Shown: piece after piece, positions 1,100 through 5,734 of the stretch
Numbering within the stretch: position 1 is the stretch's first letter
Layout: every line of letters begins with the position of its first letter
Assembly: GCA_041486365.1 (NCBI GenBank)
Contig: JBGPLH010000220.1
Coordinates: 1-5,734, forward strand
From: JBGPLH01 sp041486365 [NCBI: Thermodesulfobacteriota bacterium]
GTDB lineage: Bacteria; JAUYMQ01
DNA length: 5,734 nt
Direction of reading: 5' to 3'
The notes under the pieces: model-generated
What the model saw: the letters and a program-made list of their open reading frames with translations, nothing else
The model's database searches: none
Told to the model about the DNA's origin: nothing
Position numbers and translations under genes: made by a program

Positions 1100-2497
1100 A
1101 TGGCGCGCGCGTCCTTTCTTCCCTTTTCGCTTCCCGGAATCGGTGACGAGGAGATCGAAGCCGTCACGGCGGTCCTGCGCTCGGGCTGGATCACGACCGG
1201 CCCTGTGGCCGCGCGCTTCGAGGAGCGGATCGCCGCGCGACTGGGCGGAGGCTTCTGTCTCGCGACGAGCTCGGGAACCGCGGCGCTGCATCTCGCGCTG
1301 CTCGCTCTTCATCTGAAGCCCGGCGACGAGGTCATCTGCCCGTCGCTCACCTGGCCGGCCACGGCCAACACGATCGTGCTCGCCGGGGGGAAACCCGTCT
1401 TTGCGGACGTCCGGGCCCACGATCTGAACATCGACCCCGAGGACGTGGCGCGGAAGGTGACGCGCCGGACCCGCGCGCTCCTGCCCGTGCACTTCGCGGG
1501 GGCGCCCTGCGACATGGCGGCGCTCGAGGCCCTGGCGCGGCGCCACCGGCTCGCGATGGTGCAGGACGCCGCTCACGCCCTCGGGACCCTCTGCGGGGGC
1601 CGGGAAGTCGGCGCTCGGGGCGACGTGGCCTGCTACTCCTTCCATCCGACGAAGAACGTGACGACGGCCGAGGGGGGGGCCCTCTGGACGAAGGACGCGC
1701 GGATCGCGGACGTGGCGCGCCTCCAGCGCTTCCACGGCGTGAGGACGACCGCCTGGGAGAGAACCGGAGGTCCCGCCGGAGGTCCCGAGCGAAGCGAGGG
1801 CCGACTTCCAAAAAGATGCGCGGGCCGACAAGAATCTGATGTGCGAGGTCCCGCCGGAGGCCCCGCGCGCAGCGCGGGCCGACTTCGACACGCTGCGGGC
1901 CGACAAAAATCTGATGTGCTCGGCGGGGTGTCTAAGACGACCCGCGGCTACGATGTGGAAGTGCCGGGGCTCAAGTACAACCTGAGCGATCTGCACGCGG
2001 CGCTCGGCGTCGCCCAGCTCGAGAAGCTCGATGGTTTCCTGTCGGCTCGGGAGCGGCTCGCGGACCTGTACCGGAAGCGCCTGTCCGGGATCGATCTCCT
2101 GGAGATACCCGCCCCCCGGCTCGCGGCCGGCGACCGCCACGCATGGCACATTTTCCCGGTGCTCCCGCGGATCGATGCGCTCACGATCGATCGGTTCGAG
2201 ATCCAGGAGCGGCTCCGCGACGAGAACATCGGGACGGGCCTGCACTTCCTGCCCGTGCACCGGACGCGCTTCTACCGGAAGCTCCTGGGGCGCGCGCGGC
2301 TCCCGGTCACCGAGCGGGCGGGCGAGAGGATCCTCTCGCTCCCGCTGTTCCCACGGATGACGGAAAGCGACGTCGAGGACGTGGCGGCCGCCCTCGAGAA
2401 GGTGCTTTCCGTCGCGCGACGGCCCGCCCCTGCCCCGGGGAAGCCGCGCGCCGCCGCGGCGCGACGCGCGCCCGCGCCGAAGCGGAGGGCCCGGTGA
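1100..2497 (+). CDS. arnB: ArnB: UDP-4-amino-4-deoxy-L-arabinose aminotransferase (DegT/DnrJ/EryC1/StrS family), with a 51-residue repeat insertion
   Basis: This PLP enzyme aminates the UDP-4-keto-pentose with glutamate to give UDP-L-Ara4N in the cytoplasm. The 465 residues start with FLPFSLPGIGDEEIEAV and SGWITTGP, as in enterobacterial ArnB. Other family blocks are PSLTW (81-85), PVHFAGAP (129-136), QDAAHALGT (155-163; Asp156 should contact the PLP ring nitrogen) and SFHPTKN (180-186; Lys185 should form the Schiff base). LKYNLSDLHAAL (291-302), HAWH (347-350), IGTGLHF (377-383) and SLPLFPRMT (413-421) follow. E. coli ArnB is about 380 residues. The excess has two sources: residues 223-273, encoded by the tandem repeat at 1767-1919, and an Ala/Pro/Arg tail from about 438 to 465. 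The insertion falls between FHGVRTTAWERT and GGVSKTTRGYDVEVPGLKYNL and leaves both flanks intact, so the protein is probably still made; whether it is active is unknown. Its stop overlaps the arnC start by 4 bases. The family assignment is firm, and the ArnB role rests on wording and operon context. Confidence 0.95.
   Translation: MARASFLPFSLPGIGDEEIEAVTAVLRSGWITTGPVAARFEERIAARLGGGFCLATSSGTAALHLALLALHLKPGDEVICPSLTWPATANTIVLAGGKPVFADVRAHDLNIDPEDVARKVTRRTRALLPVHFAGAPCDMAALEALARRHRLAMVQDAAHALGTLCGGREVGARGDVACYSFHPTKNVTTAEGGALWTKDARIADVARLQRFHGVRTTAWERTGGPAGGPERSEGRLPKRCAGRQESDVRGPAGGPARSAGRLRHAAGRQKSDVLGGVSKTTRGYDVEVPGLKYNLSDLHAALGVAQLEKLDGFLSARERLADLYRKRLSGIDLLEIPAPRLAAGDRHAWHIFPVLPRIDALTIDRFEIQERLRDENIGTGLHFLPVHRTRFYRKLLGRARLPVTERAGERILSLPLFPRMTESDVEDVAAALEKVLSVARRPAPAPGKPRAAAARRAPAPKRRAR
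1784..1800 (+). other. Hairpin in repeat unit 1
   Basis: CCCGAGCGAAGCGAGGG can form CCC/GGG and GC/GC pairs around a GAA loop, with two tandem G-A mismatches between them. The core GCGAAGC is known to form an unusually stable mini-hairpin in DNA. GG at 1781-1782 and CC at 1801-1802 can extend the stem past a one-base bulge (T1783). Confidence 0.5.
1862..1878 (+). other. Perfect hairpin in repeat unit 2
   Basis: CCCGCGC (1862-1868) and GCGCGGG (1872-1878) pair perfectly over 7 bases around the loop GCA. GG at 1859-1860 and CC at 1879-1880 extend it past a single bulged C at 1861. Position for position it corresponds to the unit 1 hairpin, with the mismatched G-A pairs replaced by G-C pairs. 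Confidence 0.6.
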
Positions 2498-3465
2498 GCG
2501 AGCGCCCCTACCTCTCCGTGGTGATCCCGGTCTTCAACGAGGAGCCCAACGTCCCGTCCCTCGCGGAGCGTCTCGCGAAGGTGCTGGCCGCCTACCCGAA
2601 GCCGGCGGAGGTCGTTTTCGTGGACGATGGCAGCCGGGACGGGTCCGTGGCGGCGCTGCTCGGGGCCCGGACCGTCCTTCCCCAGGCGGTCATCGTGAAG
2701 CTCAACCGGAACTATGGCCAGCATCCCGCCGTCCTCGCGGGCTTCCTGCACGCGCGCGGCGACGTGGTCGTGACGCTCGACGCCGATCTGCAGAATCCGC
2801 CGGAGGAGATCCCGCGGATCGTGGCCAAGGTGGAGGAGGGCTACGACGTCGTCGGCGGCTTCCGCGAAGCGCGCCAGGACACCTGGTTCCGCCGGACCGC
2901 CAGCCGATGGGTCAACCGGATGACGGCCCGGATCCTCGGCGTGCGCCTGCGCGACTACGGCTGCATGCTGCGCGGTTACGCGCGCCCGGTCGTGGACCGG
3001 ATGACGGGGACGATGGAGCGGTCGACCTTCATCCCGGCGCTCGCGTGCCTGTACGCGTCCCGGATCACCGAGATCGAGGTGGCACACGCGGCGCGGGAAG
3101 GGGGCGAGTCGAAATACGGGCTGTGGAAGCTCCTGCGGCTCAACCTCGACCTCATCACCGCATTCTCCCTCTTTCCGATCCGCATGGTGAGCTTCTTCGG
3201 CGTCGGCGTGGCCGTGCTCGGGGCGGGATTCGGATTCTTCCTGTTCATCCGCCGGCTGATCGTGGGGCCCGAATCGGAGGGCGTGTTCACGCTCTTCGCG
3301 ATCCTCTTCGTGTTCGTCGGGGCGATCCTGCTCGCGCTCGGGCTGATCGGCGAGTACATCGGCCGGATCTACCACGAGGTGCGGCGCCGCCCGCACTTCC
3401 TCGTGGAGAAGATCTACGGAGGATCCGGATCATCAGACAATCCCCGGCGCGGCGACGGGATCTGA
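2494..3465 (+). CDS. arnC: ArnC: undecaprenyl-phosphate 4-deoxy-4-formamido-L-arabinose transferase (GT2 family, membrane)
   Basis: ArnC transfers 4-formamido-L-arabinose from UDP to undecaprenyl phosphate on the cytoplasmic face of the inner membrane. The 323 residues match the length of E. coli ArnC (322). The GT2 domain shows SVVIPVFNEEPNV (8-20), VDDGS (43-47), LNRNYGQH (70-77) and the metal-binding stretch TLDADLQNPPEEIPR (94-108). DYGCMLRGY (154-162), ERSTFIP (175-181) and GESKYG (204-209) follow, all close to enterobacterial ArnC. Two membrane segments lie at about 230-253 and 263-287, followed by GEYIGRIYHEVRRRPHF, a conserved cytoplasmic end. The start is the GTG at 2494, four bases after GGAGGG and inside a GTGA overlap with the arnB stop, which suggests translational coupling. 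DPM1- or GtrB-like transferases share this fold, but the wording and neighbours favour ArnC. Confidence 0.95.
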   Translation: MSERPYLSVVIPVFNEEPNVPSLAERLAKVLAAYPKPAEVVFVDDGSRDGSVAALLGARTVLPQAVIVKLNRNYGQHPAVLAGFLHARGDVVVTLDADLQNPPEEIPRIVAKVEEGYDVVGGFREARQDTWFRRTASRWVNRMTARILGVRLRDYGCMLRGYARPVVDRMTGTMERSTFIPALACLYASRITEIEVAHAAREGGESKYGLWKLLRLNLDLITAFSLFPIRMVSFFGVGVAVLGAGFGFFLFIRRLIVGPESEGVFTLFAILFVFVGAILLALGLIGEYIGRIYHEVRRRPHFLVEKIYGGSGSSDNPRRGDGI

Positions 3466-3472
3466 GCCGCCC

Positions 3473-4411
3473 ATGAGCGGACCGCTGCTGCGCGCCGTGG
3501 TCTTCGCCTACAGCGAGATGGGCGCCATGGGTCTGGAGACCCTGCTCGCGCTCGGCGCCGACATCCCGCTCCTGGCGACGCATCCGGACGATCCGGGCGA
3601 GAAGGCCTGGTTCCGATCGGTGGGAACCATCGCGGAGAACGCCGGGATCCCAGTCTTCCGGTCGAAGGGCGCGCGGGCGCCGGGGCTCCTGGAGGCCGTG
3701 CGCAGTGCTCAGCCGGAGTTCCTTTTCTCGTTCTACTACCGCCGGCTCATCCCGGAAGAGATCCTCCGGCTCGCGCCCCGGGGCGCCTTCAACCTCCACG
3801 GCTCGCTGCTCCCGGCCTTTCGCGGGCGCGCGCCGGTGAACTGGGCGATCCTCCAGGGCGCGGAGGAGACCGGCGTCACGCTCCACGTGATGGACGCCGA
3901 GGTTGATCACGGCGACATCGTCGCGCAGGAGCGCGTGGCGATCACGCCGCGGGAGACCGCGCCCACGCTCTCGCGCAAGCTCGTGGACGCGGGGCGCACG
4001 CTGCTCCAGGGTGCGATCCCGCGCCTGGCCGGGGCCAGCGCCGTGCTCACGCCGCAGGATCACGGGAAGGCGACGATCTTCGGCGGAAGGAAGCCCGAGG
4101 ACGGGCGGATCGACTGGCGGCGGAGCGCCGTCGAGATCGATCGCCTCGTGCGGGCGGTGACTGATCCCTGGCCCGGGGCCTTCGCGTTCCTCGGGCCGCG
4201 CAGGCTTATCGTGTGGGAGGCCCTTCCCGAGGAAGGGCCGGGATCGATCCGGCCCGGCAGGGTGCGCCTGGACGGAGAGCAGCAGGCGATCCGCGTGGAG
4301 ACGGGGGAGGGGTTTCTCCGGCTGGCGCGGGTCCAGATCGAGGACGAGGAAGCCGGCGGCGCCTGGGAGATGCTGAGGGGCCGGATCGGGGAAGGAGGAA
4401 TGCTCACGTGA
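3473..4411 (+). CDS. arnA: UDP-L-Ara4N formyltransferase, equivalent to the N-terminal half of ArnA, as a separate protein
   Basis: This enzyme uses 10-formyltetrahydrofolate to N-formylate UDP-L-Ara4N in the cytoplasm. The 312 residues correspond to about residues 1-304 of E. coli ArnA. Shared blocks include VVFAYSEMG (9-17), HPDDPGEKAW (37-46), FSFYYRRLI (85-93), AFNLHGSLLP (105-114), RGRAPVNWAIL (117-127) and DPWPGAF (231-237). The catalytic triad of the family (Asn102, His104, Asp140 in E. coli) appears as Asn107, His109 and Asp145. The C-terminal part is the small barrel-like domain seen in Fmt-type formyltransferases. The protein ends with MLT where the E. coli protein continues through a linker into its decarboxylase. 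The gene starts 7 bases after arnC with only a weak ribosome site, so it may depend on coupling to arnC. Methionyl-tRNA formyltransferase is the main alternative, but the FYYRRLI wording and the context favour the sugar enzyme. Confidence 0.92.
   Translation: MSGPLLRAVVFAYSEMGAMGLETLLALGADIPLLATHPDDPGEKAWFRSVGTIAENAGIPVFRSKGARAPGLLEAVRSAQPEFLFSFYYRRLIPEEILRLAPRGAFNLHGSLLPAFRGRAPVNWAILQGAEETGVTLHVMDAEVDHGDIVAQERVAITPRETAPTLSRKLVDAGRTLLQGAIPRLAGASAVLTPQDHGKATIFGGRKPEDGRIDWRRSAVEIDRLVRAVTDPWPGAFAFLGPRRLIVWEALPEEGPGSIRPGRVRLDGEQQAIRVETGEGFLRLARVQIEDEEAGGAWEMLRGRIGEGGMLT
4394..4398 (+). promoter_or_regulatory. Ribosome binding site for the decarboxylase gene, inside the formyltransferase gene
   Basis: GGAGG lies nine bases before the GTG at 4408. 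It shows that the second half of the split ArnA has its own translation start rather than depending on a frameshift. The ATG at 4400 between them is in the formyltransferase frame and reads only three codons. Confidence 0.6.
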
Positions 4412-5370
4412 AGGTACTGATCACGGGCGGCGCGGGATTCATCGGCTCGCACCTGTCGGACGCGTTCATCGGGCGCGGGGACGAGGTCTTCGTTCTCGAC
4501 ATGGCGGAGACGGGCAAGGTGCGCCACCTGCTGGGCGAGCCCCGGTTCCATTTCATCCACGACAGCGTGCTGAACGGGCCGATCGTGGAGGCGCTCGTCG
4601 ACAAGGTGGACCTCGTGTATCACCTCGCGGCCGTCGTCGGCGTGGAGCACTACGTGGCCGATCCCTACAGCGTCCTCAACGTGAACATCAACGGCACCCA
4701 GAACGTGCTGCGGGCGGCCTACCGCTCCGGGAAGAAGGTGGTCTTCTCGTCCACCTCGGAGATCTACGGGCGCAATCCGAAGGTCCCCTTCGACGAGCAC
4801 GACGAGCGCGTGCTCGGCTCCACGCGCATCGACCGCTGGTGCTACTCCACGTCGAAGGCGGCCGGCGAGCACTTCTGCTTCGCCTACCACCGGATGGGGC
4901 TTCCCGTGGTGATCACCCGCTATTTCAATATCTACGGTCCGCGACTGGACCAGACCGACATGGGCCGCGTCATCACGATCTTCATCGGCCAGATCCTGAG
5001 GAAGCAGCCGATCACCCTCGTGAACGGCGGCGCCCAGACCCGCTGCTTCACCTACGTCGACGACGCGATCCGCGCGACGGTGGCGGCGGGCCTCACGGAG
5101 CAGGCCGTGGGCGAGATCTTCAACATCGGCACGGCCGAGGAGACGAGCATCCGGACGCTCGCCGAGGCCATGGTGAATCTCACGGGCCACGAGGCGGGAA
5201 TCGTCGACGTGCCGCAGGAGAAGGTCTACGGGAAGTACTACGAGGACGTGGGCCGGCGCGTGCCCTCCGTGCGGCGGATGGAGGAGATTCTCGGCGTGAA
5301 GATGACCACCCCCCTCGAGGAAGGGCTCAAGCTCACCCTCGACTGGTTCTTCGCGCAGCCGCGCCCGTGA
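4408..5370 (+). CDS. arnA: UDP-glucuronate oxidative decarboxylase (UDP-4-keto-pentose synthase), equivalent to the C-terminal half of ArnA
   Basis: This short-chain dehydrogenase-type enzyme uses NAD+ to oxidise and decarboxylate UDP-glucuronate to the UDP-4-keto-pentose, the first committed step of L-Ara4N synthesis. The 320 residues begin VKVLITGGAGFIGSHL, with the Rossmann motif GGAGFIG at 7-13. FSSTSEIYG at 113-121 supplies Ser117 and Glu118, the counterparts of E. coli Ser433 and Glu434. Tyr146 and Lys150 form the YxxxK pair. VYGKYYEDVGRRVPSVRR (273-290) matches the ArnA stretch around Arg619, probably Arg284 here; this ArnA-like wording separates it from GalE. The start is GTG at 4408, overlapping the previous stop by 4 bases (GTGA). 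A stand-alone relative from Ralstonia makes both UDP-4-keto-pentose and UDP-xylose, so some UDP-xylose synthase activity is possible. Confidence 0.9.
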   Translation: MKVLITGGAGFIGSHLSDAFIGRGDEVFVLDMAETGKVRHLLGEPRFHFIHDSVLNGPIVEALVDKVDLVYHLAAVVGVEHYVADPYSVLNVNINGTQNVLRAAYRSGKKVVFSSTSEIYGRNPKVPFDEHDERVLGSTRIDRWCYSTSKAAGEHFCFAYHRMGLPVVITRYFNIYGPRLDQTDMGRVITIFIGQILRKQPITLVNGGAQTRCFTYVDDAIRATVAAGLTEQAVGEIFNIGTAEETSIRTLAEAMVNLTGHEAGIVDVPQEKVYGKYYEDVGRRVPSVRRMEEILGVKMTTPLEEGLKLTLDWFFAQPRP

Positions 5371-5375
5371 GGGGG
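5369..5375 (+). promoter_or_regulatory. Ribosome binding site favouring the arnD start at 5381
   Basis: GAGGGGG overlaps the last bases of the preceding gene and lies five bases before the GTG at 5381. The competing GTG at 5414, which would match the E. coli protein start better, has GAGG only two bases upstream, which is too close. Confidence 0.45.
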
Positions 5376-5380
5376 TGCGC

Positions 5381-5734
5381 GTGAGGTCGGCGGTGTTCGG
5401 GAGCGGTGAGGAAGTGCGGGTCGGCCTCAAGATCGACGTCGACACCCACCGTGGCCTCGACGAAGGCGTTCCCCGGCTCATCGAGCTCCTCGTCCGCGCG
5501 GGCGCTCCCGCCTCCTTCTACGTGACCATGGGCCCGGATCACTCGGGCCGCGCGGTCCTCCGTGTCCTCCGCCATCCCGGCTTCCTCGCGAAGATGCGCC
5601 GCTCAGGGGCGCTGCGCATGTACGGCCTGCGCACGGCGCTCTCGGGAACCCTGCTCCCGGCCCGCCCCGTGGGGAGCGGGTTGCCGCATCGTCTTCGCGA
5701 GATCGAGGCGGCGGGATTCGAGGCCGGGATCCAC
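5381..5734 (+). CDS. arnD: ArnD: 4-deoxy-4-formamido-L-arabinose-phosphoundecaprenol deformylase, N-terminal part; 3' end outside the window
   Basis: ArnD is a polysaccharide-deacetylase-type (NodB-like) metal enzyme that removes the formyl group from undecaprenyl-phosphate-linked 4-formamido-L-arabinose before flipping and transfer to lipid A. The 118 residues seen include VGLKIDVDTHRGLDEGVPRL, very close to the E. coli start [20 protein letters not shown]. The IDVD motif holds the expected catalytic and metal-binding aspartates. SFYVTMGPDHSGRAVLRVL and GFLAKMRRSGALRMYG also match E. coli ArnD. The window ends at EAGIH, where E. coli has EVGLHAWDHH, so the metal-binding histidines lie mostly outside. 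Start choice is uncertain: GTG at 5381 has the better ribosome site, while GTG at 5414 gives VRVGLKID, nearest to the E. coli N-terminus. The gene follows the decarboxylase by 10 bases in the same operon. Confidence 0.9.
   Translation, partial: MRSAVFGSGEEVRVGLKIDVDTHRGLDEGVPRLIELLVRAGAPASFYVTMGPDHSGRAVLRVLRHPGFLAKMRRSGALRMYGLRTALSGTLLPARPVGSGLPHRLREIEAAGFEAGIH

Follow-up and report, generated by a model that had tools for sequence, protein, structure and literature searches.

A putative REP-like repeat pair lying in frame within an arnB homolog

The arnB locus and its in-frame block

The window, by which is meant the whole 5,734-base stretch of DNA that was analyzed, has a GC content of 70% and carries an RNase R gene (identified with Pfam) upstream of arnB, whose product matches PF01041 with an E value of 1.3e-113 (Pfam). 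Feature coordinates are collected in Table 1. We read the gene order as that of an arn operon whose arnA is split in two; no arnT lies in the 5,734-base window. The formyltransferase and epimerase-family genes at 3473-5370 stand separately, as if arnA were split, and genes of both kinds also lie downstream of arnB in two homologous loci (L001 and L004). The last open reading frame (ORF) of the window was without a Pfam match and matched ORFs in L001, L002, and L004 by tblastn; from its place in the operon it is presumably an ArnD-like deacetylase.

The RNase R gene was also used to place the window among sequenced genomes. In the phylum of G001, 214 of 297 genomes had a match, with a best listed identity of 58%; in the phylum of G008, 11 of 38 genomes did, with at most 42%. 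In the RNase R tree the window formed a long branch that fell within none of the supported clades, and arnB was found in none of the 20 RNase R neighbourhoods examined.

Table 1. Positions of the genes, repeat units, hairpin cores, and boxes in the window
Feature	Position	Strand	Details
arnB, UDP-4-amino-4-deoxy-L-arabinose aminotransferase homolog	1100..2497	+	465 aa including the insert
Full in-frame excess over homologs	1766..1930	+	55 codons, residues 223-277; from the 12-homolog alignment and pLDDT
Repeat unit 1	1767..1844	+	78 nt; family-model match on minus strand at 1779-1834, 14.9 bits, E 0.0023
Hairpin core, unit 1, CCCGAGCGAAGCGAGGG	1784..1800	+	GAA loop; 7-pair stem with 5 standard pairs and two facing G-A mismatches
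GTCGGCCC box, unit 1	1798..1805	-	
GTCGGCCC box, unit 1	1822..1829	-	
Repeat unit 2	1845..1919	+	75 nt; family-model match on minus strand at 1857-1934, 12.0 bits, E 0.015
Hairpin core, unit 2	1862..1878	+	7 of 7 stem pairs standard, GCA loop
GTCGGCCC box, unit 2	1876..1883	-	
GTCGGCCC box, unit 2	1897..1904	-	
Downstream genes, same apparent operon	2494..5734	+	glycosyltransferase 2, formyltransferase, NAD-dependent epimerase family, start of a further ORF

An initial annotation of this DNA had reported a block of two repeat units within arnB and proposed that ArnB homologs be aligned across the site. All 12 ArnB loci found in one scan of genome contigs, including that of a distant relative (L012), were without the block; the closest homolog (L001) was 51% identical over the alignment. 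Since both these homologs and the four PDB sequences with alignments shown (of 79 matched) split at the block site, the annotated placement of the insert between two conserved blocks was borne out. The claimed size was less exact. By reading, the SK of the SKTTRG that lies 3' of the block aligns with SKGGSPQ of L001, so the excess comes to about 55 rather than 51 residues; the in-frame excess is thus real, but by alignment with L001 its size is 54-55 residues (1766-1930). Homology likewise resumes on both sides, as had been stated, but cutting out 1767-1919 alone leaves three to four extra residues rather than a normal ArnB.

The protein was modeled with AlphaFold2 (11 sequences), and the result was a normal ArnB whose best fold match was 1mdx (TM-score 0.94 by target length). 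Confidence fell below a pLDDT of 50 at residues 221-283, and in three other short stretches, one of them 184-190. Given the low pLDDT at residues 221-283, the block is predicted to form a disordered loop.

Repeat units, hairpin cores, and codon use

The two annotated units (78 and 75 nt, in the arnB frame at 1767-1919) are real, with an ungapped score of 30 against each other and a maximum of 13 in 300 shuffles. Their ends are alike, with 90% identity over 42 nt and 96% over 25 nt, their middles (11 nt in unit 1 and 8 nt in unit 2) are unrelated, and the unit spacing is 78 and 75. No further copy was detected on either strand in the rest of the window, where the best score for unit 1 was 12 (reached by 35 of 200 shuffles) and that for unit 2 was 11 (reached by 152 of 200). 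Within the block there was no inverted repeat of at least 12 nt, and no target duplication was found at it, the alignment of its flanks being equalled by 438 of 2000 shuffles.

A chimera or other artefact of assembly could be suspected, the source being probably a metagenome record. We regard this as highly improbable: frame and homology resume on both sides of the block, and two non-identical units are unlike a simple duplication error.

Each unit holds a hairpin core of 17 nt. The two cores differ by three A-to-C changes, two of which convert G-A mismatches into pairs. In DNA, unusual stability is a feature of both GNA loops and tandem G-A pairs. Whole units folded no better than shuffles (z from -0.02 to 0.83 as RNA); the unit 2 core alone folded better than most shuffles (9 of 200 and 2 of 200 were as good on the two strands), and the unit 1 core alone did not do so with the energy model used. 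The GTCGGCCC box occurs four times in the window, always on the minus strand inside the block, with the two copies of a unit lying 24 and 21 nt apart.

Codon use sets the block apart from the surrounding gene, as the initial annotation had noted. Its codon adaptiveness in the arnB frame was 0.275, against a minimum of 0.565 among 1452 overlapping 51-codon windows of the window's genes, and GC at third positions was 0.47 versus 0.92. The arnB frame is open across the block, and this part of the annotation stood; as evidence for an element, however, the kept frame is weak, because any insert in an intact gene must keep the frame and because 44% of shuffled blocks were stop-free in the arnB frame. 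Five of the six frames are open in the block and in each unit, and since 21% of shuffled blocks reach that number, the openness reflects composition rather than design.

The +1 frame of the block is more coding-like than the arnB frame (adaptiveness 0.57 versus 0.275; log-likelihood -3.85 versus -4.58 per codon), as would be expected if the block were a piece derived from coding DNA or were bounded by a compensating pair of frame shifts. Such an origin seems very unlikely, as 0.57 falls short even of the 5% point of the window's genes (0.644), searches with the +1-frame peptide gave nothing in Pfam at E up to 1 or in plasmids at E up to 10, and a frame-shift pair requires two indels at the edges of the repeat.

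Hairpins within a gene could also belong to a short intron or to a translational bypass, in which the element would be removed or skipped after transcription and a normal protein made. We find this barely credible: the block is in frame and stop-free, which such elements need not be, and positions 1700-2000 of the window gave no Rfam match at E up to 1.

Searches with the block and its parts were made in several collections. There was no match by blastn in phages and none in the peptide searches of plasmids; blastn against plasmids returned 63 records, of which the best 20 were short pieces with E values of 0.6 or worse. In the viral contigs, three hairpin patterns were each found 0 times, and an 18-mer present in two contigs was rejected as chance, the other repeat parts being missing there. 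When the 166-nt block was compared by blastn with 297 genomes, 16 gave matches, 19-53 nt long and with E values no better than 3.9e-4 per genome; these were likewise taken as chance.

The units may instead have arisen in place, the ArnB loop growing by local slippage or duplication unrelated to dispersed repeats. They are adjacent and alike, no other copy lies in the window, and the exact 21-base unit tail had 0 matches in the genome contigs and 0 in the viral contigs scanned. We nevertheless consider such a private expansion unlikely. It sits poorly with unrelated middles between ends that are at least 90% alike, with the foreign codon use, and with a core that is a repeat in other genomes. 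The three hairpin differences, moreover, raise the stem from five to seven standard pairs, which 44 of the 18360 possible triple changes do (a post hoc count on two copies only).

The same core in other genomes

The 17-mer of the unit 1 core recurs in other genomes. The pattern CCCGAGCGNAGCGAGGG occurred 44 times in 13 of the 297 genomes from the phylum of G001, with up to 15 occurrences per genome and one for the reversed control. A longer pattern, CCCGNGCGNAGCGNGGGNCGAC (the core and then GGGNCGAC), was found in 0 of 99 genomes, in two almost identical sets. The sequence GAGCGAAGCGA also lies within a primer that a rep-PCR study designed on repeats of Mycobacterium intracellulare (PMC10117815), which hints at a recurrence of the core in another phylum.

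In G239, the alaS gene (PF01411; L101 1515-1600, G239:C16) has an in-frame insert of about 27 residues that carries the same 17-mer antisense and is missing from the two solved AlaRS whose alignments were shown. As G239 holds one exact copy of the core, dispersal is shown for another genome, G368, and not for G239. When 30 genomes of the family of G239 were searched with the alaS repeat, three had matches, among them G368 with at least 40 (30 of its 70 candidates were scored).

The genome of G368 (~1.6 Mb) contains 45 copies of CCGAGCGNAGCGAGG, with 0 for the control. Covariation is seen in the stems of these copies. Both pairs adjacent to the core are standard in all 45, and each occurs as three pair types, of a compensatory sort; the third pair is standard in 35 of the 45, and the next two mostly are not. 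Copies were screened as intragenic where an open frame of at least 190 codons extended at least 50 codons to either side. Nine copies passed this screen; the other 36, in shorter frames or close to the end of a frame, were counted as non-intragenic. Six of the 45 are in frame in genes where Pfam matches either span the insert or flank it on both sides, namely a thioredoxin-reductase-like gene (trxB-like), an ispE-like GHMP kinase (whose C-terminal Pfam match of 20.8 bits is 0.2 under the curated cut-off of 21), a pseudouridine synthase, a nadD-like transferase, ubiE, and aroD. The hyuA gene (L144/L118), with a Pfam match upstream of the insert only, is a probable seventh case. Two more loci (L152 and L168) have long open frames through the copy and no flanking Pfam match, and were excluded from the count. 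The in-frame cases, including the probable one, are at L144, L150, L151, L156, L174, L175, and L177.

A direct repeat of about 33 nt, equalled in 0 of 500 shuffles, flanks the copy in ubiE (L150 ~1459-1560) and may represent a long target duplication. Flanking repeats at seven other tested inserts, including that in alaS, were not clear, with 31 to 434 of 500 shuffles equal to them.

A model of the 45 G368 copies was run against the window, and its three best matches all fell inside the block. The plus-strand match on the core (22.1 bits) is circular because the core had been taken from the window. Both minus-strand matches skip the core by which the copies had been collected, and their E values of 0.0023 and 0.015 are modest and rough; the next match elsewhere in the window had 9.2 bits (E 0.088). 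Local alignments with 19 G368 copies were compared with 200 shuffles. On the minus strand, one shuffle scored as high as unit 1, one as high as unit 2, and none as high as the block; on the plus strand the numbers were 0, 5, and 1, respectively.

The two sets of repeats have in common a hairpin core, in-frame copies in genes, and, in many G368 copies, GTC-CCC boxes that come in pairs, spaced about 20 nt with T-rich sequence between them. They differ in the box itself, which is mostly GTCGCCCC or GTCACCCC in G368 and GTCGGCCC in the window, and in stem and flanks, which are unlike; the window's lineage is also another one by RNase R. On these sequence comparisons, kinship or a shared architecture between the block and the G368 repeats appears likely, short of proof.

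The Y1 transposase family was present in G051 (13) and G134 (32), and no match to it was found in G368, G239, G353, or G232. The matches in G134 are frequent, and one (C2:62317-62637) is on the contig of L076, where three tandem hairpins with an exact spacing of 51 nt were observed at 2728-2846. At L080-L095 and L102-L105 (G234, G120, G051, G176, and G149), many hairpins stand just 5' of a second, variable palindrome, which by eye we take to resemble integron attC sites. Seven copies of GTCATTCTGAGCGNAGCGAAG, a related short palindrome, were seen in G232 (L107 and L109-L114).

Comparison with known elements and interpretation

Among the titles and abstracts listed in the literature searches, none was about the window's unit. 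The sequence had been annotated as an unrecognised one; its kind is already known, intragenic REP dimers and clusters having been published (PMC3733652). In that account, CGTC REPs are short GTC-tagged hairpins, often dimers, that include RPE-4 and RPE-6 of Rickettsia conorii; dimers or groups of them within genes, seen in some species, encode 20-30 residues, and some clusters 43-82, apparently with no dedicated transposase (PMC3733652). The comparison was made by such described features, the consensus letters of these REPs standing in a figure. As far as the described features go, the window agrees in its short hairpins preceded by GTC and in the pairing of units inside a gene, two of them in arnB. 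It departs in detail: CGTC REPs have a terminal CGTC, or TGTC/CCTC, whereas the window's units have, by reading, AGTC on the minus strand before the hairpin; and their stem of 8-9 bp starts with A-T, whereas the window's stems start with G-C and have five or seven standard pairs around a loop of 3 nt.

The Rickettsia palindromic elements (RPEs) described by Ogata and others, to which the block had originally been compared, are inserted in frame in conserved enzymes and tolerated there (PMC2229807). In-frame fusions to genes are described for RPEs and for other MITEs (PMC2229807, PMC10969869). Here too the comparison is with described features. The likeness lies in an in-frame insert in a conserved gene, 12 of 12 homologs being without the block, but the RPEs described are 105-146 bp long with terminal inverted repeats and a long stem-loop, whereas the window's units have 78 and 75 nt and are without an inverted repeat of at least 12 nt. 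The original comparison thus holds for a small hairpin repeat in frame, with a core that is multi-copy elsewhere and in frame in genes of G368 and G239; it does not hold for RPE length and terminal inverted repeats. Similarly, the MITEs with ORFs (ERIC/RU-1 and YPAL/RU-2), as presented in PMC2229807, are small non-autonomous repeats fused in frame; they differ from the window's block, for which no target duplication was found and which has no inverted repeat of at least 12 nt.

The best reading places the block near the CGTC-REP/RPE-4/RPE-6 kind known inside Rickettsia genes. Most probably its two units are REP-like dispersed repeats, each forming a hairpin, that lie head to tail and are tolerated in frame in arnB. 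The pair would have entered arnB in frame and been tolerated as an unstructured loop, arriving as a DNA insertion, either by transposition or by a hairpin-templated event. Both units would be separate members of one family, dispersed in their own genome, and the ArnB that carries them would still work. Survivorship is likely to have played a part, in that insertions that keep the frame and land in a flexible loop persist; with each unit open in five of six frames, frame-keeping insertions in loops would survive.

A broader possibility, which we put forward tentatively and with some doubt, is that the core-GAGCGNAGCGA hairpin is a portable module common to unrelated lineages. It would be selected as a DNA or RNA hairpin (with its GNA loop, and with G-A mismatches exchanged for standard pairs), would spread also where no Y1 transposase was found, and would repeatedly lengthen conserved enzymes in frame outside Rickettsia, with about one in seven copies doing so in G368.

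Rickettsia is the best-known setting for small repeats that invade working enzymes in frame. Should the units prove to be dispersed in their own genome, the arnB block would add a high-GC lineage to the cases of such invasion. Together, the six, probably seven, genes of G368 and the alaS of G239 would offer material for measuring both the cost to the enzyme and the mechanism of insertion.
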